Positions 6,061 through 22,076 of a DNA stretch of 64,000 bases are shown piece after piece. The first letter of the stretch is position 1. Every line of letters begins with the position of its first letter. The notes under the pieces are model-generated. The model was not told the DNA's origin and made no database searches. It was given only the letters and a program-made list of their open reading frames with translations. The DNA lies in assembly GCF_000218685.1 (NCBI RefSeq), contig NW_006763295.1, forward strand, positions 930,857-994,856. The letters are read 5' to 3'. The DNA is from Serpula lacrymans var. lacrymans S7.9. Its lineage: Eukaryota; Basidiomycota; Agaricomycetes; Boletales; Serpulaceae. A program made the position numbers and the translations under genes.

Positions 6061-6419
6061 TGTCACGATCCTCTTCTCTTACACCCAATACTTCACCTTT
6101 CATCTCCAACTCTGACGTAGAAACACTCATTTCTCCTTATCTTATCACGTAGCCTTCCTTATCTTATCTTCTTATCTCATCATATGACCCTAAGTCACAT
6201 GATCACTTACAAATCATCTTACCAAGCTAAACACGATACATCCTCATGTCTATCAGTCAGCGCCTCATGGCTGACATGAGTTCTTACATATATAAGTAGA
6301 CACTCAACGATGTACATACCTTAGCTTTTGATTTCGTCTTTATACACCTGTTCAACTACTTGCTAGAGATTGACGTTGAGTTGCCTGGTTTCTTCCAGTA
6401 GTGCAACTCAGTCGTTATA
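6061..6419 (+). repeat. 5' LTR of element A
   Basis: The LTR starts TGTCACGATCC and ends CAGTCGTTATA. It matches 20885-21243 apart from one C/T difference at a CpG (TATCACGTAG against TATCATGTAG). A TATA box (TATATAAG) lies at 6289-6296. The end is TA rather than the usual CA; the target duplication fixes this boundary. No tRNA-complementary primer site was recognised after it. Confidence 0.9.
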
Positions 6420-6450: not shown

Positions 6451-6717
6451 ATGACAGAAACAAAGGCTATCCTAATCATCATCCTAACCCCCATCATCAT
6501 CATCCTATTCTTCGTTCTACTCAAACTATACATTCGCCTCACCACACCCCTCTCTCAAATCACATCTCCTATCACTCGCCCATCCACCATAATCACTTTC
6601 ATCCAATCATCACCATCTAACTCATCTTTCGAAACCATCCCTCTATCTCCCATCATCCGCCCCCACAATCCCATACTTAGAGAACTTAGTGACGTGGAGT
6701 CGCTAAGATTCTATTAG
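6451..6717 (+). CDS. Small single-pass membrane ORF in the leader of element A
   Basis: An 88-codon frame begins at ATG 6451, only 31 bases after the 5' LTR and well before gag (7111). Residues 5 to about 27 form one strongly hydrophobic helix (AILIIILTPIIIILFFVLLK) followed by a basic residue. The rest is a Ser/Thr/Pro/Ile-rich tail. It is the first ATG-initiated frame on the element RNA, so it could act as an upstream ORF or make a small membrane protein. Its sequence does not clearly match the LTR-encoded membrane ORFs of B and D, but the size and topology are alike. Pyrimidine-rich sequence can give hydrophobic frames by chance. Confidence 0.4.
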   Translation: MTETKAILIIILTPIIIILFFVLLKLYIRLTTPLSQITSPITRPSTIITFIQSSPSNSSFETIPLSPIIRPHNPILRELSDVESLRFY

Positions 6718-7110: not shown

Positions 7111-7713
7111 ATGTCTTACGACACATATCGAGAGACCCCGGACATGGCCGAGAGCACCGACATGTCAGATTTGCGGGACGCATTACCGCATATTCAGCCG
7201 CGCGCACCATCGCCGGCAACCAACCAGCAGCAGATGCAGAACCTGCAGAACCTCATCCTAACGGCGGTCAACAACGCAATCGCAGACAACAACGAATTAT
7301 GGGAAGAGAGATTCTCATCGAAAGACGAAGAAGTAAGAGACTTGCGCAGAAGGCTCGCAGAGAGCGAAAGGAGGCAGCCTTCAGGAATGGGCCTGCCACG
7401 CGCACAAGAAGCAGAATTTAGGAAAACGGCATTAGCAAAGCTGGAACCTTATGACGGAGACAAGAAGAAGTTTCGAAGCTTCTCGGAGTCATTAGAACTC
7501 CATTTTAATGCAAATTCGGCATACTTCTCCCGAGAAAGGAACCGGATAAGCTTCGCCTTATCCTATATGAGTATAGGGGCAGCAGCGGCCCTAAGAACAG
7601 AGTGGGTAGAGAGGAGAAAGATCGCAGAAGAAAGGTCAGATGCAGGGGAAATCACCCTCTTAGAGAGCTGGGCTCACTTTGAGAGGACCCTCAAAGACCA
7701 TTTCACTGACACA
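7111..7713 (+). pseudogene. gag of element A, 5' part (split by element B)
   Basis: The frame starts at ATG 7111 and encodes about 201 residues of Gag: a polar N-terminus, a coiled-coil-like segment (EERFSSKDEEVRDLRRRLAE) and the Gag core (LAKLEPYDGDKKKFRSF, then FALSYMSIG). At 7713 element B begins, and a few B LTR codons extend the frame artificially. The target duplication ACACA (7709-7713 and 15960-15964) marks the exact break. Removing B and one duplicate would leave the frame open into 15965-16576, so gag was intact when B arrived. Confidence 0.8.
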
Positions 7714-7891
7714 TGTCAGGCAACAAATACGAAGCTATATAACAAAGCTCAATGTCTGGTCAAGTCCTTCCTTGAAGGCGGTGAATCAGAGTATGAGAAT
7801 GAAGAGTATCGGTAAGAGCGCAAATCCTAACTAATATTGAACTAGAGAACAATACATCGAGTATATACTTCTCTATATAGTGAACGGCGAT

Positions 7892-7933
7892 GGTCAGACC
7901 GAGAAAGGGAACTACTGAGAAAGTGGTCTGACC
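7892..7933. promoter_or_regulatory. Inverted repeat upstream of the TATA box, LTR B
   Basis: Two 9-bp arms, GGTCAGACC (7892-7900) and GGTCTGACC (7925-7933), are perfect inverted repeats with a 24-base spacer. On the LTR sense strand they lie just upstream of GTTCACTATATA. LTR D has the same layout (21683-21722) with both arms changed in a matching way. It may be a dimeric protein site or an RNA hairpin. The same repeat occurs in the other B LTR at 15510-15551. Confidence 0.6.
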
Positions 7934-8126
7934 AGCTAACTAACCAATAAGAAAAAAGGGGGGAAGTGGTCCGATCTATCGTGTTTACTAATCGTATGAG
8001 AAAACATATTGGTAAGGGATATGCGATTGGCTGTATCAGTAAGCCCATGAGAAGGCGCTGATTCACTACCTTCTTTGCTTATCAATATTCCTCCGAAGTA
8101 TTCCCAGACATAGCACTGGATCGTGG

Positions 8127-8306
8127 CTATGTCATCGGGATATCTTCTTGAGGGTCGACAACGAGTCTGCTTCGTTGTAGATACGATAGAACGTGAGTGT
8201 GAAGAGAGAATAAGAAGAAAAATGATAAAAGTAATAAGACACCGGCTGTAATCTCTAGTCCAAGGGCAAGAGGAGTGACGGGGATCGAATCTGCTAACCA
8301 CGACAT
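8127..8306 (-). CDS. LTR (U3)-encoded 59-residue membrane protein, element B 3' LTR
   Basis: A 59-codon frame starts at ATG 8306 (MSWLADSIPVTPLALGLE) and ends at TAG 8127-8129. Residues about 14-36 form one hydrophobic helix (ITAGVLLLLSFFFLFSL), followed by a basic and polar tail (SYLQRSRLVVDPQEDIP). A homologue of 56 codons lies at 21295-21465 at the same place in LTR D. The block PVTPLALGLE is identical there although six of its ten codons differ, all synonymously. In this 3' LTR the ORF sits after pol, upstream of the TATA box. The placement recalls the U3-encoded accessory genes of some retroviruses. The function is unknown; the evidence for coding is the substitution pattern. Confidence 0.65.
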   Translation of the reverse strand: MSWLADSIPVTPLALGLEITAGVLLLLSFFFLFSLHTHVLSYLQRSRLVVDPQEDIPMT

Positions 8307-8353
8307 GACGGGAATGCGATAAGAAAAATTGATTCCTCACATTAGCTCCCCTT

Positions 8354-11300
8354 TTATAAGACTCGTGTCCTCATGAGTCCGGATGCGGCACTTTGGAACT
8401 TGTTACTAATCCAATCAAAAAGCATCGGCGGTTTAGAAGTGGCGGTGTAGTTTTCGTAAGGACGGAAGTGAAGAGAAGCGGTAATAATACGAGGGGCGGC
8501 GGGATTTGTTTTGTGGAAGGTGGCGAGTAAATCAGCGACATGCGTAAGATTGGTGTCGGGTTCCCAAGTGCGTTCGGAGACTGGATAACCATGCCAGTGA
8601 ATTAGGTAGTCGAGCTTACTACCTTTCAGTTTAGTCGGTCTGGAAGCGATTATACTCTCTACTTCGTATTCGTCTGTTCCTTCCACAATCTCGGGTGGTG
8701 GTCGCGAGGAAATTGGTTGATTGAGGAATTCAGGAGCGTGGTATGGTGAGAGGATGGCTTCGTTGAATACAGGGTGAATGGACTTCCAACTTTTAGGGAT
8801 GTCGAGCTGATATGCGGAGGGTCCGACCTTTTGGGTGATTTTGAAAGGTCCGAAGCGTTTATCGTCTAATTTCTTCATTGGTCTATCCGTTGTGATGTTA
8901 TGCCCTTCTAACCAGACTTTGTCGCCAGCTTGGTACTTCCGGGAGGGGGATTTCTTACGGTCGTAATACTTCTTCAGATTCTCGTTTGCTACAAGAAGGG
9001 AGGATTTCGTGATATCGTGGAGTTTTTTCATCTGTTCGCTAAATTCTGCTGCAGAAGCGGAACGAGGGGACAACGTGGTGGTGATATTTGTTCTTGGGTG
9101 TAACCCATAGTTCAAAAAGAAGGGTGTTTGGTTCGTTGCGGTATGGAGGTGGTTGTTGTATGTAAACTCAGCAATCGAGAGCCAGTCTGCCCAGTCATCT
9201 TGTCGATGATTTATAAAAACGCGGAGGTAATGCTCTAGATCCTGGTTGATCCGTTCGGATTGTCCGTCTGTTTGAGGGTGATAGCCTGTAGAGAGGCCTG
9301 GTGTTATCCCCATTAGGTCGTAGAAATCTTTCGTGAATCGAGACATGAACTGAGGACCTCGATCGGAGACGATCTTTTCAGGAATTCCATGGAGTCGTAT
9401 TACATTATCTCGGAGTTGACGTGCATAACCGGCCGAGTCGAGAGTGACGAAGGTGGGGACGAAATGGGCCATTTTACTAAATCGGTCAACAAAGACCTGA
9501 ACGGCGGTGTAGCCCTTGGATTCCGGTAATGCGCCTATGAGATCGGTGGTGATAATCTGCCAAGGCCGATCTGGTATCGGGTTCGGGTGTAGAGGGGCGT
9601 TAGTCTTTGTCCGATGTGCCTTGGTGCGTTGACAACTCTCGCATCCTCGTACATACCGTCTGATATCTGTACGAAGACTTGGCCACCAGAGCTCTCGGTT
9701 TACTCGTTCAAACATCGTTCTTTCTCCTGGGTGCCCGGCTAGGGCTTCGTCGTGATGATCTTTCAATATTCGCGCCCTTAGTTCGTGATTTCTGGGAACG
9801 TATACTCGGTCAGCTAAAGGGATCGGGTAGGAACCCGTCGTGGACTCTCTCTTGATCCAGACGATCCTATCCTTCATCTTCCAGGTATCCGGCTTCTCTT
9901 TCAAGTTCTTCTTTACTACGTCGTCTTGTTTCTGGAAGCTTTGATGTATATCTGGTAGGTATCCTTCGTTGGTGTCAAGTAATTCGAAATGTACGTCTGG
10001 GAGAAGTATCTGATCCTCATTATTGTTTGTGCCTTTAGGATGATCGATCCGTCTGCTTAACAGGTCGGCCTTCGTATTCTGATTTCCTTTGACGTGTTCC
10101 ATCTTAAAATTATAATCTGCAAGCTGGGATGACCATTGAGCTTGGCGTCGATTGTATTTCTGAGGTTGACGGAAGTAGAGGAGGTTTTGGTGATCTGTGA
10201 AGATGGTGAAGGGGTGTTTCGATCCTACAAGGTGATGTCGCCATTCATCTAACGCCGTCATGACTGCGAGCATCTCTTTGTCGTAAATTTCATAGTTCCG
10301 TTCTGCAGCGGTAAGGGCTTTCGAGAGGAATGCTATGGGTCTGAATTTGTCGTTTTGTTTCTGGGATAGGACAGCTCCTACAGCGAAGTCAGAGGCATCG
10401 GTTTCTAGTTTGAATGGGTCGTCGTCGTTTGGTATAGCAAGGGTGGGGGCAGTAGTAAGCGTTTTCTTCAACGTTTCAAAGGACGTCTCTTGTTCATCTT
10501 TCCAGGTCCAGTCAACTTTTCCGGTGAGCACAGTGAGTGGTTTCGCAATTCGTCCGTAGTCTTTGACAAATTGTCGATAGAAATTGGAGAACCCTAAGAA
10601 TGATTGGAGTTCTCTTTTGTTCTTTGGTGCGGGCCAGTCAGCGACCGCTGCGACTTTTAACGGATCCATACGGATAGTGTCTTTGGAGATGATCATGCCT
10701 AAATACTCGACTTCCTGTTTCTCAAATTCGCATTTCTCTGGTTTAAGATACAACTGATTTTGTTGCAGGATACGGAGGACTTTGGTGACTATTTGACGAT
10801 GTTCTTCGAGTGTTTCCGTGAAGATCATAATATCGTCTAAATATACAATAACTTTTCCTTCCGTGATCAGTTCTCTTAGGAGGTGGTCCATCATGGTCTG
10901 GAAGGTTGCTGGCGAGTTGGTAAGTCCGAAAAACATGACGAGGGGTTCGAACAGGCCGCGATTGGTCCTGAAAGCGGCCTTGTGTTCGTCTCCTTCTTGG
11001 ATTCGGACGTTGTTGTATCCCCATCGTACGTCTAGTTTCGTGAAGTAATTGGCACCTTTGAGTTTATCGATGAGTTCGGATATGAGGGGGAGGGTGTAGC
11101 GATTCTTTATGGTAAGCTCATTCAGCTTGCGATAATCTTGGACAGGGCGTAGTGAGCCATCTTTCTTTTTGATAAAGAAGAATGGTGATGCGTAAGGTGA
11201 TTTGGATACTCGAATCCGTCCACTTGTTAGATTTTCGTTAAGGAATTCGTCTAGATGGTGTTGTTCGTCTCGGCTAAGAGGGTACGTTTTGCAGTCAAGA

Positions 11301-12187
11301 CCATTAGCCTCGGGTATTAACTCAATCGCATGGTCCCAAGGACGTTTCGGGGGAAGTTTGTCAAATGATTCTTTGGTGAAGACGGGTTCGAATTCATGGT
11401 AGATTGGAGGAACGACATCTCGGAAAGTAAGCTTTGACTTTGCCTTTTCGGAGGATTCGGCAATTTGTTGACTTTTAGTGGCAAACACGTTCAATTCTAG
11501 CTGTGTTATCTCCATAATTCGTGTTTCGAGATCGACGGCTAGAACTTTATCCCCTTCTTCAGGATGATACTCCGGATCATCAGCAGGGAAGGTAATCTTG
11601 TTGGTCCGCCAATCAATTGTTGGATTCGTCAGTATCAACCAGTCGTATCCAAGCAGTATGCGTGGTGAAAGTAGAGATGCTACGATGACATCTATCAAAT
11701 GTTCTTTCCCTTTCACATTGATGTGAAGAGTGACATAGTGTGTTACTTTCTGGGATCGACCATCGGCTCCTGCAGCGTCAAGAGGGACGGGCAGAGGCGT
11801 AGTATTGAGGGTATACTTGTCAACCAGGCTTCGATCGATAACCGAGTTGGTGCAACCAGAGTCGATAAGGGTTGGGACGGTGAATGTCTGTCTGTCGTCT
11901 ATGGTAGTGACTTGAGAAATGATATGGAGGCTTCGTTTTGACGTAGGGTGGTGCGGCGAGGTGTAAGCATGGATGCGTTCTATAATGTTCTCTTCGTCGT
12001 GGTTCCTCAGCATCTGTATCGCCTGCAGGGTGATATGCTCGTAGTGATCTTTATGGGCCCAGTTTCGTAACAGAGCTCTTGCTCTTTCTGGTTTCTGGTC
12101 TTTGATTCGTCTGGCCAACCATTCCGGTGAATGTGGCTTCGCGTAGGTTTCGGTTACAGCACGTAGATGTTGATCAACTCGTTTCAT
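8354..12187 (-). CDS. Pol polyprotein of element B (protease, RT, RNase H, integrase, chromodomain)
   Basis: A single 1277-residue frame. The aspartic protease has LIDSGCTNS near residue 109. The reverse transcriptase has YLDD at about 449-452. RNase H begins near LETDASDFAVGA (about 594). The integrase has an HHCC zinc motif (HH at about 810, CESC at about 849) and a D,D,E core (Asp near 882, Asp near 942, Glu near 978). A chromodomain lies at about 1172-1230 (YEVESIIASR, LIHWHGY, RTWEP). The frame is -1 relative to gag and stays open upstream of this ATG, so it is probably made by frameshifting rather than from its own start. No canonical slippery heptamer was found in the overlap. It is full length for fungal chromoviruses and has no stops. 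Confidence 0.93.
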   Translation of the reverse strand: MKRVDQHLRAVTETYAKPHSPEWLARRIKDQKPERARALLRNWAHKDHYEHITLQAIQMLRNHDEENIIERIHAYTSPHHPTSKRSLHIISQVTTIDDRQTFTVPTLIDSGCTNSVIDRSLVDKYTLNTTPLPVPLDAAGADGRSQKVTHYVTLHINVKGKEHLIDVIVASLLSPRILLGYDWLILTNPTIDWRTNKITFPADDPEYHPEEGDKVLAVDLETRIMEITQLELNVFATKSQQIAESSEKAKSKLTFRDVVPPIYHEFEPVFTKESFDKLPPKRPWDHAIELIPEANGLDCKTYPLSRDEQHHLDEFLNENLTSGRIRVSKSPYASPFFFIKKKDGSLRPVQDYRKLNELTIKNRYTLPLISELIDKLKGANYFTKLDVRWGYNNVRIQEGDEHKAAFRTNRGLFEPLVMFFGLTNSPATFQTMMDHLLRELITEGKVIVYLDDIMIFTETLEEHRQIVTKVLRILQQNQLYLKPEKCEFEKQEVEYLGMIISKDTIRMDPLKVAAVADWPAPKNKRELQSFLGFSNFYRQFVKDYGRIAKPLTVLTGKVDWTWKDEQETSFETLKKTLTTAPTLAIPNDDDPFKLETDASDFAVGAVLSQKQNDKFRPIAFLSKALTAAERNYEIYDKEMLAVMTALDEWRHHLVGSKHPFTIFTDHQNLLYFRQPQKYNRRQAQWSSQLADYNFKMEHVKGNQNTKADLLSRRIDHPKGTNNNEDQILLPDVHFELLDTNEGYLPDIHQSFQKQDDVVKKNLKEKPDTWKMKDRIVWIKRESTTGSYPIPLADRVYVPRNHELRARILKDHHDEALAGHPGERTMFERVNRELWWPSLRTDIRRYVRGCESCQRTKAHRTKTNAPLHPNPIPDRPWQIITTDLIGALPESKGYTAVQVFVDRFSKMAHFVPTFVTLDSAGYARQLRDNVIRLHGIPEKIVSDRGPQFMSRFTKDFYDLMGITPGLSTGYHPQTDGQSERINQDLEHYLRVFINHRQDDWADWLSIAEFTYNNHLHTATNQTPFFLNYGLHPRTNITTTLSPRSASAAEFSEQMKKLHDITKSSLLVANENLKKYYDRKKSPSRKYQAGDKVWLEGHNITTDRPMKKLDDKRFGPFKITQKVGPSAYQLDIPKSWKSIHPVFNEAILSPYHAPEFLNQPISSRPPPEIVEGTDEYEVESIIASRPTKLKGSKLDYLIHWHGYPVSERTWEPDTNLTHVADLLATFHKTNPAAPRIITASLHFRPYENYTATSKPPMLFDWISNKFQSAASGLMRTRVL

Positions 12188-12246: not shown

Positions 12247-13308
12247 TTACTCCTGACCTTTCTGAAAATCCTTCGGGGGTGCTTCAATTTCTTTTAATGA
12301 CGATGTAGTGGGAGTGTCTTTGGTTTCCTCCGTTTCCATATATCGTATTGCCATCTTTCCATGTGGGCAATTTCTAGCAATGTGGCCTCGTTTGCCACAA
12401 TTGTAACAAGTAACATTTGGGTTGGGCCGATGTTGTCTCTGCGTGTTGGAACTCCCAATCTCCATAGGTACACCTGATCCTCCAAACGTTCCTGCTGTGT
12501 TTGGATGGACTGCATTCTGGGGCGGTGGTTTATGAGATGGAGTATAATACGGTCGCGGTTGGATATACCGTGGTCTTCGCGTCTCTGTTCGCGGTACTGT
12601 CTGTTGATGCTGTGGTGGAGGGTAGCCTTGGTTCTGCTGATAGCGCGGTTGATATCGTTGGTACTGAGTTGGCAGCCTTTGTTGAGGTGGTTTATCTCTC
12701 CTCCTTTCCAGATTAAGCTCTTCATTTCGCTGTTCCCATTTCCTTGCCGCTGCCTTCCACTCTAAGTACGTGGTGGGTAGGTTTTCCTGTTGCGAGATAC
12801 GATCACGAAGGAATTGGGAGAGGTTGCGACGAAGGATACTGTGAATGAACGGATAACTTTCATCTGCGTCTGGTGGTAATCCCGCTTCCATAAGTTTGGA
12901 TTCGAGTCCTCCGAAATATGCGTCTACCGTCATCTCTCGTTGTTCGTAATCGTGAAGGGCAATCTCTGCTTTCAACTTGAGATGGGGGTCCAGGAATTCA
13001 TTATCTAATTCCTTGATGAATTCTGAGATAGTTCCCCAATTTCACAGTGCAAATAAGTCTCCTAGCACTGCGGTTTTGTTGTTGAAGTTCGCCTTCCATG
13101 TATGACAGGCGTCATTGGCTTTATTGGACGAGATTCAGGATAGTGCAAAGAGGATTTTGGAGGAGTTGGTTTGGAAACTTCTGGGATAGGCGAAAAAGTA
13201 GTTTGCTAAAGCGTTCTTCCAGTCAACGTATGTTTCCTTTTTACCGATGAATTCGAATGGAGGAGTGGCAAGGACAGCTTTGCTTCCTTGATTTGTTTCG
13301 TCGGCCAT
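12247..13308 (-). pseudogene. gag of element B with two in-frame TGA codons
   Basis: From the ATG at 13308 (MADETNQGSKAVLATPPFEF) the frame runs to TAA at 12247. It has the Gag core (FIGKKETYVDWKNALANYF), a Gln/Arg/Pro-rich linker and one canonical CCHC zinc knuckle (CYNCGKRGHIARNC). TGA codons at 13137-13135 and 13044-13042 interrupt it, both in the same frame. No other lesion is seen. The frame is also open upstream of 13308 to about 13545, with Pro-rich sequence but no ATG, so the true start is uncertain. If the stops are not read through, Gag must come from another copy. Confidence 0.75.
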
Positions 13309-13591: not shown

Positions 13592-14629
13592 TTACTCAAA
13601 GTCTGGGTCAAATGTAAAGTTACTAGGGAAGTCTCCTCCTTCTGCTTCTCGGGGTCTCCAGTATTCTACGCTTTGAGTAGACTCTTCACTTTCCGACTCG
13701 GTCTCGCTGCTAGATTCTCCCCCGAGTATATCTGTTAATGAACTTCCTGTTTCTCGTTCTATCCTTTCTGCACAAGGTGCAAAAAGTTGTTCAACCGACG
13801 GGATGAGCGGTGCTTCTCCTCTCCGACCTTGGTAGGTGTAAGAGTACTGCGAATAGATACGAGTTCGTGAGCTATGGTTGATAACGGCCCAGAAATCGCT
13901 TTGGAGTACTGTAACAATGAAACGTTCGGGGTGATCAGATTGTTGGTTAACAACAAATGGAGTGAGGATTTCTAGGATCCAGTAATATTCGTCGACGTAT
14001 TCTGAAACGTGTCGAATGTTGTCGATTTCGGTCGTGTAGTCTTCTCCGTCACGGGATTTCCTCTGAGCAGTCGCGATGAGCTGATCAAATCGTGCTAATG
14101 CAGCAACAACTCGTCGAATATGATCTTTAGTAGAGGGCATGACGATTATAATAGAAGTGCTGTGTTGAAGACCAAACCGCGGCCCGAATGCGTCAAGATC
14201 TTGGACTTCAGGGAGGTAGAGAGTTCGGCGAAGTCGTGTCAGATATTGGACAATAGAAAGGTGGTCCAGATGATTGCCGATGCAGAAGTACTGGATGGGT
14301 TGGTAACTGACAGGAGAGGCGGAGTAGGTGTCGTAGTAGTCCGATGTAAAAAATGAGGACGGGATATCATAGGTAGGTTCCTCGTTAGGCCTCTTCCTTA
14401 ATACAATGCCGCAAAGTAAGGTGTGTTCGAAGTCGTAAGGGAGGAGGTGGCTGGGTATGTCTGGAAAAATGAGAGGGCGGATTCGATAAAGATCGAGGAG
14501 ATCTGGGATGTGGCTCTGCGAAATAAGTTGCAGGTTTCGTTCTTGTACGTTGGCTATTCCTTTCAAAAGCTTAACCCTCTGAGTGTTCTCGTAACTCGGG
14601 CGTACTAGGCTTTCGAAGTAATCTATCAA
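13592..14629 (-). CDS. Leader ORF 2 of element B, unknown function
   Basis: A 345-codon frame lies between the 5' LTR and gag, ending in an acidic Ser/Glu-rich tail (GGESSSETESESEES) and a stop about 50 bases before the gag frame opens. It has no ATG near its 5' end. Protein-like sequence extends upstream in the same frame (RARRELLIFISLRHEQIPL), so translation may enter it by frameshift from the overlapping leader ORF 1. Visible features are mixed helical and aromatic-rich segments (YVDEYYWILEILTPF) without a known motif. Extra ORFs before gag are unusual for this element type. Confidence 0.4.
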   Translation of the reverse strand: MIDYFESLVRPSYENTQRVKLLKGIANVQERNLQLISQSHIPDLLDLYRIRPLIFPDIPSHLLPYDFEHTLLCGIVLRKRPNEEPTYDIPSSFFTSDYYDTYSASPVSYQPIQYFCIGNHLDHLSIVQYLTRLRRTLYLPEVQDLDAFGPRFGLQHSTSIIIVMPSTKDHIRRVVAALARFDQLIATAQRKSRDGEDYTTEIDNIRHVSEYVDEYYWILEILTPFVVNQQSDHPERFIVTVLQSDFWAVINHSSRTRIYSQYSYTYQGRRGEAPLIPSVEQLFAPCAERIERETGSSLTDILGGESSSETESESEESTQSVEYWRPREAEGGDFPSNFTFDPDFE

Positions 14630-15074
14630 CGGAATTTGTTCGTGCCGCAGGGATATGAAGATTAAAAGTTCTCTCCGTGCTCTGTCGGAGATGTTGGAGT
14701 ATCTCCTCGAGACTGCGAGAATTTCTCCTACAGATGGCGGAATGGTAAAAGATGGATTGGGTGAGAGCGAGTGCGTCGTTTATGTCGAGGATGATATCCT
14801 CGATCGGATCAATTGGTGAAGACGAAGCAGAGGAGTCTTGATACAACTCAGTGATCTGTTCGACCGTTCCTTCCACGTCTGGAGTACTGGCTTCGGTAGG
14901 GGCGGGGAGGACCGGGAGCGGTTTGTTGAGAGCTGCGAGGAAATCTCTCTGGTGTCTGCGGTCCGCTTCTGATACCCACTCTTCTGAGAGCTGTTGGGAG
15001 GTAGACACGATGGAGGTAGACGACGTCACTGACGAGTCCGGTTTGTAGGTATCTGATGATGGCAAAGAACGCAA
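14571..15074 (-). CDS. Leader ORF 1 of element B, unknown function
   Basis: A 167-codon frame overlaps the 5' end of leader ORF 2 in another frame. It is Ser/Thr-rich at the start (SSDTYKPDSSVTSSTSIVS), then acidic and helical (DPIEDIILDINDALALTQS), then basic. It begins with TTG rather than ATG. It may be the upstream half of the same protein as leader ORF 2, joined by a frameshift near 14690, or two broken halves of one gene. No family was recognised. Confidence 0.35.
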   Translation of the reverse strand: MRSLPSSDTYKPDSSVTSSTSIVSTSQQLSEEWVSEADRRHQRDFLAALNKPLPVLPAPTEASTPDVEGTVEQITELYQDSSASSSPIDPIEDIILDINDALALTQSIFYHSAICRRNSRSLEEILQHLRQSTERTFNLHIPAARTNSVDRLLRKPSTPELREHSEG

Positions 15075-15331
15075 AGAATTGGACGAGAGCGGTGATGGTA
15101 GAGAAGGCGTCCAGTTTGAGAAGACTGAACGACAATAGGTGTAGTGGGGTGGATAGTGAGAGGTCGATGACGATAGTGAGGAGAACGATAGGGATGGTAG
15201 AGAGGTGGAGAAGGTGATGATGAAGGTTTAGACCGGTGCAGTGGCAACGACAGTCTTTTTCAGGGTGTAAGGAAACGGTTTTCCAAAGAGGGGCTCTGGA
15301 AAAGGATTCGAGGTAGGTGAGTTCAATATTT
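15075..15331 (-). other. Leader of element B just after the 5' LTR
   Basis: One minus-strand frame is open from the LTR edge for about 100 codons and holds two hydrophobic stretches (IPIVLLTIVIDLSLS and LVQFFAFFAIIRYL). It has no ATG, and its continuation past 15075 looks less natural than leader ORF 1. It may be non-coding leader or the remains of a membrane-protein ORF. No tRNA primer site was recognised next to the LTR. Confidence 0.3.
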
Positions 15332-15959
15332 TGTCAGGCAACAAATACGAAGCTATATAACAAAGCTCAATGTCTGGTCAAGTCCTTCCTTGAAGGCGGT
15401 GAATCAGAGTATGAGAATGAAGAGTATCGGTAAGAGCGCAAATCCAAACTAATATTGAACTAGAGAACAATACATCGAGTATATACTCCTCTATATAGTG
15501 AACGGCGATGGTCAGACCGAGAAAGGGAACTACTGAGAAAGTGGTCTGACCAGCTAACTAACCAATAAGAAAAAAAGGGGGAAGTGGTCCGATCTATCGT
15601 GTTTACTAATCGTATGAGAAAACATATTGGTAAGGGATATGCGATTGGCTGTATCAGTAAGCCCATGAGAAGGCGCTGATTCACTACCTTCTTTGCTTAT
15701 CAATATTCCTCCGAAGTATTCCCAGACATAGCACTGGATCGTGGCTATGTCATCGGGATATCTTCTTGAGGGTCGACAACGAGTCTGCTTCGTTGTAGAT
15801 ACGATAGAACGTGAGTGTGAAGAGAGAATAAGAAGAAAAATGATAAAAGTAATAAGACACCGGCTGTAATCTCTAGTCCAAGGGCAAGAGGAGTGACGGG
15901 GATCGAATCTGCTAACCACGACATGACGGGAATGCGATAAGAAAAATCGATTCCTCACA
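15332..15959 (-). repeat. 5' LTR of element B
   Basis: Direct repeat of 7714-8341. Differences that I can see are one A/T near 15447, one T/C near 15488, one base at the A/G run boundary near 15577 and one T/C near 15948. It carries the same U3 ORF, inverted repeat and TATA box. Confidence 0.92.
15745..15924 (-). CDS. LTR (U3)-encoded 59-residue membrane protein, element B 5' LTR
   Basis: It is identical to the ORF at 8127-8306, starting at ATG 15924 and ending with TAG. In the 5' LTR the ORF is upstream of the element TATA box, so transcription from this LTR would not include it. Only readthrough from host sequence would. The copy in the 3' LTR is the one expected in genomic RNA. Confidence 0.6.
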   Translation of the reverse strand: MSWLADSIPVTPLALGLEITAGVLLLLSFFFLFSLHTHVLSYLQRSRLVVDPQEDIPMT

Positions 15960-20500: not shown

Positions 20501-20976
20501 ACCCCTATAAAGAACCAACCTTTCCTGGTCAAAAGAAACCAAAACCTCCACCCCCCGCTGAAGTTGACGGACAAAGAGAATACGAAGTAGAACAGATACT
20601 TGACTCACGATTGAAACGTGGCAAGTTAGAATATCTGGTACATTGGAAAGGATATGGAAAGGAAGAACGAACATGGGAACCTGAGCGAAATGTCAAAAAC
20701 TCGCCAGGACTAGTCAAAGACTTCCATGATCATTTCCCATCCGCTCCACGCCGAATCAATTTCTTACTTCATTATCAACCGTTCGAAAACTTCACAGAAT
20801 TTTCCCATAAACATAGGATATTTAACTGGGAAAATGGCAAACTTGAACCAACCTTTCGGGACGAAAGTTCTAAAGGGGGGGTAATGTCACGATCCTCTTC
20901 TCTTACACCCAATACTTCACCTTTCATCTCCAACTCTGACGTAGAAACACTCATTTCTCCTTATCTTATCATGTAG
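17560..20976 (+). CDS. Pol of element A, RT, RNase H, integrase and chromodomain part
   Basis: An uninterrupted frame of about 1,138 residues in the same phase as the protease part. It has RT with FFFIKKKDGKLRPVQDYRKL and YLDD, RNase H starting near VEADSSDYALGA, an integrase zinc motif (H...H, CETCQRTK), the D,D,E core (STDLIGPLPESKG, SDRGVQF, TERINQE) and a chromodomain (YEVEQILDSR, YLVHWKGYG, RTWEPE). It ends in the 3' LTR. The purine tract AAAGGGGGGGTAA lies inside its 3' end just before the LTR at 20885. The chromodomain probably guides integration to marked chromatin, by analogy with characterised chromoviruses. Confidence 0.9.
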   Translation: MSKLDFNRCPSDCNMVVRFFDPEEDLETYCPEVNLGEGDRIIQFNFLNVEDTSIPDVMHHIRAHGTTAQQLAEAAGKDQKTGGFEGIVPKYLHEFKDVFDKKEFDALPERRQWDHAIELIPGDHTIDCKVYPLALGEQEQLDAFLKENLDSGRIRPSKSPIASPFFFIKKKDGKLRPVQDYRKLNEITIKNRYPLPLINELVDKLRGAKYFTKLDIRWGYNNIQIKEGDEHKAAFRTNCGLFEPLVMFFGLTNSPATFQTMMNSIFKDLIDEGKVVIYLDDIMIFTKTIEEHRAMTRRVLQILRKHHLYLKPEKCDFEETETEYLGLIISENKIRMDPIKVKGILDWPECKTKKHVQAFLGFVNFYRRFIEGFGSIAKPLTKLTGKEEFIWGKEQKEAFEEIKRRISTTPVLALPTNDGQYRVEADSSDYALGAVLSQEQNEVWKPIAYLSKSLNPTERNYEIYNKELLAIMTALEEERHYLMDAAKEFKIWTDHQNLTYFKQPQKLNRRQARWVSELANYHFTLHHKPGATHIKADLLSRRSDHDEGKNDNENVTLLKPELFSINMTLSHEKRQQIAIDDAKNIEITRWIHKRMKNVDELVQKVKDKIDNRQDGWWTDEGLIYFKGRMYVPKDRKLRETIIRDNHDSPIAGHPGRYKTKELITRWYWWPYMDKDVQEYVTGCETCQRTKTDHQKKAAPLHPNEIPSRPWQIISTDLIGPLPESKGYNTIMVVVDRFSKMIRIMPTHAELNSEGVARLFRDNIFKLHGLPDKIISDRGVQFVSNFMKDLYTMLGIKGNPSTAYHPQTDGQTERINQEIEQYLRIFVNHKQDDWADWLPLAEFSYNNKEHSATGFSPFYLNNGQHPKIVEGIRKGVKSESAEEFVERMKETREEAEKSLAKAAEIMKRSYDKTKKESLEYEPGDKVYVEAEHITTDRPSKKLDDKRHGPFVVEKKTGPAAYKLKLPGKWKNVYPVFNEKILHPYKEPTFPGQKKPKPPPPAEVDGQREYEVEQILDSRLKRGKLEYLVHWKGYGKEERTWEPERNVKNSPGLVKDFHDHFPSAPRRINFLLHYQPFENFTEFSHKHRIFNWENGKLEPTFRDESSKGGVMSRSSSLTPNTSPFISNSDVETLISPYLIM

Positions 20977-21243
20977 CCTTCCTTATCTTATCTTCTTATC
21001 TCATCATATGACCCTAAGTCACATGATCACTTACAAATCATCTTACCAAGCTAAACACGATACATCCTCATGTCTATCAGTCAGCGCCTCATGGCTGACA
21101 TGAGTTCTTACATATATAAGTAGACACTCAACGATGTACATACCTTAGCTTTTGATTTCGTCTTTATACACCTGTTCAACTACTTGCTAGAGATTGACGT
21201 TGAGTTGCCTGGTTTCTTCCAGTAGTGCAACTCAGTCGTTATA
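20885..21243 (+). repeat. 3' LTR of element A
   Basis: It matches 6061-6419 with one visible difference. It is preceded by a purine tract and followed by the target duplication CACAC. Confidence 0.92.
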
Positions 21244-21294
21244 CACACCCTGTGCCATGTGTAAGGACCATTTCATTATTTTCTTATCTTCGCT

Positions 21295-21465
21295 ATGTCT
21301 TGGTTCTCGAACGCTTTACCCGTTACACCTCTGGCTCTAGGGCTAGAGGTATCCTTTGCCGTTTTACTTCTCATAGCCCTCACAGGCTTTCTTAACCATC
21401 ACTACCATTTTATATCACAGATCAGAGACTGGGTATCACTCCCAGCCAGCCAGCACACGGAGTAA
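21295..21465 (+). CDS. LTR (U3)-encoded 56-residue membrane protein, LTR D
   Basis: A frame from ATG 21295 (MSWFSNALPVTPLALGLE) to TAA 21463-21465 encodes one hydrophobic helix (VSFAVLLLIALTGFL) followed by a His-rich turn and a polar tail. It aligns with the 59-residue ORF in the LTRs of element B at M-S-W and through the whole PVTPLALGLE block. Over that block, six codons differ and all six changes are silent. Length, membrane topology and place in the LTR also agree. Both ORFs are too short to be picked up by usual length cut-offs. The role is unknown. Confidence 0.65.
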   Translation: MSWFSNALPVTPLALGLEVSFAVLLLIALTGFLNHHYHFISQIRDWVSLPASQHTE

Positions 21466-21682
21466 GGACTGGTAGTAGGCATCTCGCCAACCAGCTCCAA
21501 GCCTCAGTAAAGCCTGGTTATACTAATAACGCCTTATTCAGGATCGTACCTCATTATGAGGATACGGTTCCTGAACACGCGTGACAAACCTCTATTATTA
21601 GTACAAGTCTCTCACCTGCTGATTAATCAAGTTAAAAGTCGTACAATAGTTGTTCTCTCTTTTTCTTATTGGTCGATTGATT

Positions 21683-21744
21683 CCTCAGACCACTTTTCGT
21701 ATATTCTCCTTTCGGTCTGAGGAACAAACAGTTCACTATATAAA
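21683..21744 (+). promoter_or_regulatory. Inverted repeat and TATA box of LTR D
   Basis: Arms CCTCAGACC (21683-21691) and GGTCTGAGG (21714-21722) form a perfect inverted repeat with a 22-base spacer. About 12 bases later comes GTTCACTATATAAAG. The B LTRs have GGTCAGACC and GGTCTGACC at the same place, so both arms changed in step. Confidence 0.6.
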
Positions 21745-22076
21745 GCCTTACCTATTCATGTATGGCTCCTTAGTTTTCTATTACTGAATTTACCCGCTTT
21801 ACTCCTCAACGAAAACCTTTGAAGCTTACCTCTCAAAGTCCTCTGCTCGCTATATTTACTAGTGTCTGTTGACCTCAAGCTCATCGAACCCCTTACTCCC
21901 TGCAAGTGCAGAAGGAGACAGGTTTCGTTTTTGTTATAGTTTATTTTTGCCTCACAGGTATTCATCAGTCCAAACCTCATCATCAGAATATGTCTCAAAC
22001 CTGTTCACAAATGGGCTTATCAGAAACCCCTTGCACATCCAGAAACTCTGTGTTACCAGGCTTGCACATTCCAAGC

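Follow-up and report, generated by a model that had tools for sequence, protein, structure and literature searches.

A candidate membrane-protein gene inside U3 of LTRs from Serpula lacrymans Ty3/gypsy chromoviruses

We report that LTRs of Ty3/gypsy chromoviruses in the dry-rot fungus Serpula lacrymans carry, inside U3, an ORF that is almost certainly a real gene selected as protein, and whose product is predicted to be a single-pass membrane protein of about 56-63 residues. The best explanation overall, to which we give an even chance, is that it would be an accessory membrane-protein gene of these elements, expressed from the 3′ LTR copy. The usual picture of fungal Ty3/gypsy elements is of gag-pol machines that do without a membrane protein of their own; a conserved U3 membrane protein would add a layer of accessory genes so far known from vertebrate retroviruses. 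A U3-encoded protein kept by selection is known from a few of those retroviruses, and we did not find one described for fungal elements in the literature searched.

The ORF lies in both LTRs of an element, here called B, on the minus strand of the window (the whole 64,000-nucleotide stretch of DNA that was analyzed). The 3′ LTR (7714-8341 (-), 628 bp) and the 5′ LTR (15332-15959 (-), 628 bp) differ at four positions, and the flanks read as an ACACA target duplication. Between them lie pol (8354-12187 (-)), encoding protease, RT, RNase H, integrase and a chromodomain, and a part of gag with a zinc knuckle (12247-12975 (-)). The RT-RNase H-integrase order and the integrase chromodomain, together with LTRs, target duplication and polypurine tract, place B among the Ty3/gypsy chromoviruses; it has no recognized env. 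The gag of this copy seems interrupted (12975-13308 (-)), its start and its zinc-knuckle part being separate short ORFs, unlike other copies, which have pol-containing frames of up to 1701 codons. B is inserted in the gag region of another element, A (7111-7713 (+), broken off at 7714), whose 359 bp LTRs (6061-6419 and 20885-21243) differ at one position and are flanked by what reads as a CACAC target duplication.

As the initial annotation had claimed, the two LTRs of B hold an identical ORF of 59 codons (8127-8306 (-) in the 3′ LTR, 15745-15924 (-) in the 5′ LTR), encoding MSW, the block PVTPLALGLE, one hydrophobic span and a basic tail, and a homologue of 56 codons (21295-21465 (+)) sits at the same offset in LTR D, a lone LTR (21260-21956 (+)) at which no target duplication was seen by eye. 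Both ORFs begin at LTR base 36, that is, 35 bases into U3. The location given for the 3′ copy, after pol, in U3 and upstream of the TATA box, also holds: the TATA box of the main promoter of B (7873-7879 (-)) lies at LTR base 463, downstream of the ORF, and the coding frame is thus wholly within U3, as in a U3-encoded accessory gene. Between B and D, six of the ten codons of the PVTPLALGLE block differ and all six differences are silent, as had been claimed, and nine of the remaining 14 of the first 24 codons carry residue-changing differences.

Because transcription from the main TATA box would begin downstream of the ORF, the genomic RNA is expected to include the ORF just once, at the 3′ end, within the 3′ LTR; this would be the copy expressed. 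There, bases 3-5 of the LTR form an in-frame stop (TGA in B, at 8337-8339 (-), read by eye; TAA in D) that parts the ORF frame from pol, so that pol cannot read into the ORF. Fusion to pol by frameshift was rejected on the same stop, present in B and D. Just before the LTR lies the polypurine tract AAAAGGGGAGC (8345-8355 (-), read by eye), and overlapping both it and the pol stop codon is a TATAAAA (8352-8358 (-)) that we propose as the promoter of the 3′ U3 ORF. The sequence before the 3′ LTR in ORF-bearing families is TATAAAAGGGG, in which TAA ends pol and the purines make up the polypurine tract. A script run over all loci found TATAAAA at 24 of 25 distinct 3′ junctions of these families (18 B-type, 7 D-type), the lone exception being L071, with TATAGAA. 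The script had flagged 30 sites, of which three were places counted twice (L002/L040, L007/L049, L022/L147) and two, L065 at 3039 and L179, were judged by eye to be non-junctions; counting both of the latter gives 24 of 27. In A, L198 and L199, three families that showed no U3 ORF in the stretch read, the junctions have no TATAAAA (0/3), with TTCTAAAGGGGGGG or TCCTAAGGAGGGGG instead. The pol of element A passes the polypurine tract into the 3′ LTR and ends there (20885-20976 (+)), as it does in the L198 and L199 families. The TATAAAA precedes the ATG by 52 bases in B; for D, the copies read have about 53-55. These 25 junctions are not independent, because the pol genes of B and D are related and the polypurine tract is conserved anyway, and with such shared descent the TATAAAA may have been inherited by chance. 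A scan with a bacterial-type promoter model, unsuited to a fungal host, gave nothing.

From the motif and its placement, expression from an internal promoter at the TATAAAA seems to us a proposition about as likely to be right as wrong. The ORF would then have its own short message, starting just downstream of the TATAAAA that the pol stop codon and the adjoining polypurine tract form together, and ending at the polyadenylation site of the LTR itself. A second promoter at the polypurine tract is a simple, testable prediction.

The same protein could instead be made from a spliced subgenomic RNA, with a donor in the 5′ leader and an acceptor near the end of pol or the start of the LTR, as for retroviral env and for sag of mouse mammary tumor virus; the passages on Sag in one source describe two spliced transcripts from which it is translated, one of them starting at the 5′ LTR and the other at a promoter in env (PMC3026287). 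In favor of splicing, about 10 codons separate the ATG from the in-frame stop upstream (an open frame of 69 codons). We nevertheless consider splicing fairly unlikely: in neither B nor D was an AG following a pyrimidine tract seen by eye from the LTR start to the ATG, and the ATG is kept in 16 of 18 old LTRs (see below), which suggests that initiation occurs there. Less likely again is that ribosomes reinitiate after translating pol on the full-length genomic RNA. Only about 50 bases separate the pol stop from the ATG, but reinitiation after an ORF of 1277 codons is rare in eukaryotes.

Whatever the route of expression, the claim that selection acts on the protein is supported by comparison of old LTR lineages. 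The initial annotation had proposed measuring dN/dS on LTRs collected by nucleotide search, and for old Serpula lineages this gave 0.28 in frame. These LTRs were gathered by DNA similarity to the LTRs of L069 and L070, queries that included the ORF region, and are 62-82% identical to B within the ORF. In 18 B-type LTRs (17 found by DNA and the window's own), pairwise dN/dS in the ORF frame is 0.28 (codon bootstrap 0.19-0.38), as compared with 0.72 and 1.54 in the shifted frames and 0.52-0.83 in frames downstream of the ORF. A set of 23 LTRs (253 pairs) gives a median of 0.24 in frame versus 0.79 and 1.54 shifted, with differences in the ORF of 0.28, 0.17 and 0.40 by codon position. When 902 windows of 177 bases on both LTR strands of the 23 LTRs were scanned, the 12 lowest ratios all fell in the ORF frame and overlapped the ORF; the 477 windows outside the ORF had a minimum of 0.50 and a median of 0.73. 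Three gapped sequences (L172-L174) were left out of these three analyses. The leader of the old LTRs (bases 11-35) shows no unusual conservation (0.24 versus 0.26-0.28 downstream).

A tree of 98 sequences, many of them picked by protein score, agrees. In-frame omega is 0.41 on branches leading to two or three tips, 0.35 on branches to at least four tips and 0.57 on terminal branches, against internal-branch values of 1.38-1.64 in the shifted frames of the ORF and 0.59-1.56 in downstream control frames. Three stop gains fall on branches to two or three tips and none on branches to at least four. The tree leaves out L095, L101, L172-L174, L069 and seven refetched duplicates. Decay after insertion can only raise dN/dS and omega. 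The low in-frame values relative to the shifted frames in old lineages indicate that selection acted on the protein while the elements multiplied.

Younger copies carry a weaker signal. Genome-wide protein searches gave 695 candidate places for B and 675 for D, of which the best 150 each were scored; a stop was present in 13/150 (B) and 1/150 (D). Because places picked by protein score are biased, LTRs were also sampled by the part downstream of the ORF only, taking the best 40 of 301 candidates for a B subfamily and, for D, the best 40 of 397. These samples, mostly young copies (91-100% identical to the query in B, 94-100% in D), were the only ones in which selection was assessed within the D family alone. 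By script call the ORF is intact in 27/40 B and 36/40 D copies; failures comprise eight stops, three indels and two copies without ATG in B (one of the indels, L117, reads open by eye), and one stop, two indels and one copy without ATG in D. In trees of 37 B and 39 D sequences, leaving out L095, L101 and L128 (B) and L140 (D), in-frame omega is 0.63 (B) and 0.76 (D) on internal branches and 0.87 and 0.81 on terminal branches. Internal branches in control frames range from 0.41, in one frame downstream in B, to 11.8; control frames thus overlap the ORF values, and this test does not separate the ORF from the controls. The claim of selection rests accordingly on the old lineages, where it is clear, the signal within the young subfamilies being weak. 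The initial annotation had named frequent stops and dN/dS near 1 as observations that would count against it. Between old lineages neither was found (dN/dS 0.24-0.28, and internal omega 0.35-0.41 in the 98-sequence tree versus 1.38-1.64 shifted), yet with 13/40 B copies broken decay is not rare, even though 36/40 D copies are intact, and young internal omega reaches 0.63 and 0.76.

This decay bears on whom the gene serves. It could be a captured or domesticated host gene kept for the host, much as sag stays intact in most endogenous mouse viruses while virion genes mutate, according to passages in PMC3026287. We regard such a role as very improbable here, given that copies decay after insertion, with stops in old copies that include TGA or TAG in place of TGG at W3 and, at Q and R codons, stops arising by C-to-T change, that terminal-branch omega is 0.87 and 0.81 in the ORF-independent samples, and that no non-LTR homologue was noticed among the best 150 places per search, whose surroundings were read in part. 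Scarcely conceivable is a chance ORF whose conservation reflects a DNA-level control sequence, even though promoter elements reside in U3 and dN/dS in the young subfamilies gives a weak signal that does not stand clear of the control frames, for such constraint is largely refuted, and was rejected, by the frame test (0.28 versus 0.72 and 1.54), the codon-position differences of 0.28, 0.17 and 0.40, the six silently differing codons of ten between B and D, and the window scan, in which the ORF frame accounts for each of the 12 lowest ratios out of 902.

In an alignment of 15 sequences of the U3 protein, M1, W3, P9, P12, L13, G16, L17 and L24-L26 are invariant and T11, A14 and E18 nearly so. The hydrophobic helix claimed initially is borne out as a prediction: AlphaFold models a single helix at residues 12-50 (mean pLDDT 79), and the most hydrophobic 19-residue stretch is 15-33 in B, in D and in a 63-residue database relative, P0004 (hydropathy 2.2-2.3). 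The net charge of the 15 residues after the span is +2 in B, +3 in P0004 and 0 in D, whose tail is neutral. By the positive-inside rule the B and P0004 proteins would have their start outside and their tail inside, and D gives no clear call. The protein would sit in a cell membrane, its short start exposed and its mostly basic tail in the cytoplasm. At 59 aa, with about 14 residues before the span, it does not have the make-up of a retroviral envelope protein (large ectodomain, cleavage site, fusion peptide); one predicted hydrophobic helix in a protein of fewer than about 100 aa is viroporin-like. It might aid the element, and not the host, through tethering, release or nuclear-envelope passage of particles, or through a pore-like activity.

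The U3 ORF is present in three LTR families of the Serpula lacrymans genome: B, D and the decayed copy L069, which has the same layout and resembles P0004 right to the tail. P0004, found on one 603-base ENA contig only, matches the Serpula copies at 60-66%. A profile search of the protein database returned eight proteins in all, P0004 and seven named Serpula. SERLADRAFT_400236, SERLADRAFT_393261, SERLA73DRAFT_192256 and other Serpula lacrymans hypothetical proteins are the same or near-identical copies, annotated without function, under record names that give no sign of an LTR-encoded origin. Masking LTRs as non-coding can leave genes overlooked, as the U3 ORF suggests. The initial annotation had suggested collecting related LTRs from agaric genomes, a term that is correct in the broad sense only, Serpula lacrymans being of the order Boletales. 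A search of IMG/VR viral contigs for relatives gave 111 pattern matches, none confirmed. Pfam at E≤1 gave no family for the B or P0004 protein and, for D, only PF16082 and PF11808, far below cut-off; a PDB profile search gave one match, at E 0.4, and Rfam at gathering scores gave none in 7700-8420.

The window holds further ORFs beside the 5′ LTRs. Between the 5′ LTR and gag of B lies an ORF of 345 codons (13592-14629 (-), in a 395-codon open frame) without a Pfam match; its relatives, at 24-29% identity, are mostly 384-codon open frames without stops, sited at D-family elements, and it has the appearance of an additional conserved gene 5′ of gag. Between it and the 5′ LTR, an ORF of 95 codons with a hydrophobic start (14848-15135 (-)) may be the start of the 345-codon gene or a further membrane protein. 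Element A carries an 88-codon ORF between its 5′ LTR and gag (6451-6717 (+)), with a very hydrophobic start (19-residue hydropathy 3.38). A genome search placed it at 71 sites, many of them other copies or families at 48-54% identity, with open frames of mostly 91-111 codons; it looks like a second small membrane-protein gene, unrelated to the U3 ORF.

A broader reading, which we put forward tentatively and think rather doubtful, is that the Serpula chromoviruses are 'complex' retroelements, with an accessory membrane-protein gene wholly in U3 and an internal promoter made from the pol stop and the polypurine tract. Related families that lack the U3 gene would have, immediately downstream of the 5′ LTR, the gene for a different small hydrophobic protein, and a membrane step would on that account be general in the life cycle of these elements.

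Several known systems resemble parts of this arrangement. Nef of primate lentiviruses is likewise an accessory protein that associates with membranes and is encoded by a gene overlapping the U3 of the 3′ LTR, but it starts upstream of the polypurine tract, is lipid-anchored and is larger. LTR retrotransposons of plants and rotifers also carry genes beyond gag-pol, some with membrane spans, but the extra ORFs described in the passages covered sit outside the LTRs (PMC7264820, PMC5408684); the phrases 'within the LTR' and 'inside the LTR' are absent from both texts, and the parts covered of these two papers and of PMC11963269 hold no passage on an ORF inside an LTR. For retrotransposons of Boletales, including Serpula, the portion covered of one study names only standard pol domains for the one family drawn, from Coniophora olivacea (PMC5689174), and titles and abstract openings in the literature searched, which mostly excludes subscription papers, mention no LTR-encoded protein in fungal elements.

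The likeness to the superantigen gene of a mouse retrovirus, drawn in the initial annotation, stands for position only (U3, beyond the end of pol and before the TATA box). Sag is a membrane protein far larger than the Serpula U3 protein. According to passages in PMC3026287, Sag too is an accessory protein encoded in the 3′ LTR of mouse mammary tumor virus, its coding sequence makes that LTR long, and one of its two transcripts uses a promoter other than the main one, located in env, for which the Serpula counterpart would be the proposed TATAAAA promoter; Sag is presented to T cells, whereas the carrier here is a Ty3/gypsy element without recognized env in a fungal host. The proposed promoter would resemble that of a prosimian foamy virus, in which, as passages in PMC4261875 describe, a TATAAAA internal promoter in env drives a 3′ accessory gene. 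The likeness is a TATAAAA near the end of the last structural gene for an accessory gene at the 3′ end; the foamy virus box lies within env, whereas the putative Serpula box overlaps the pol stop and the polypurine tract.
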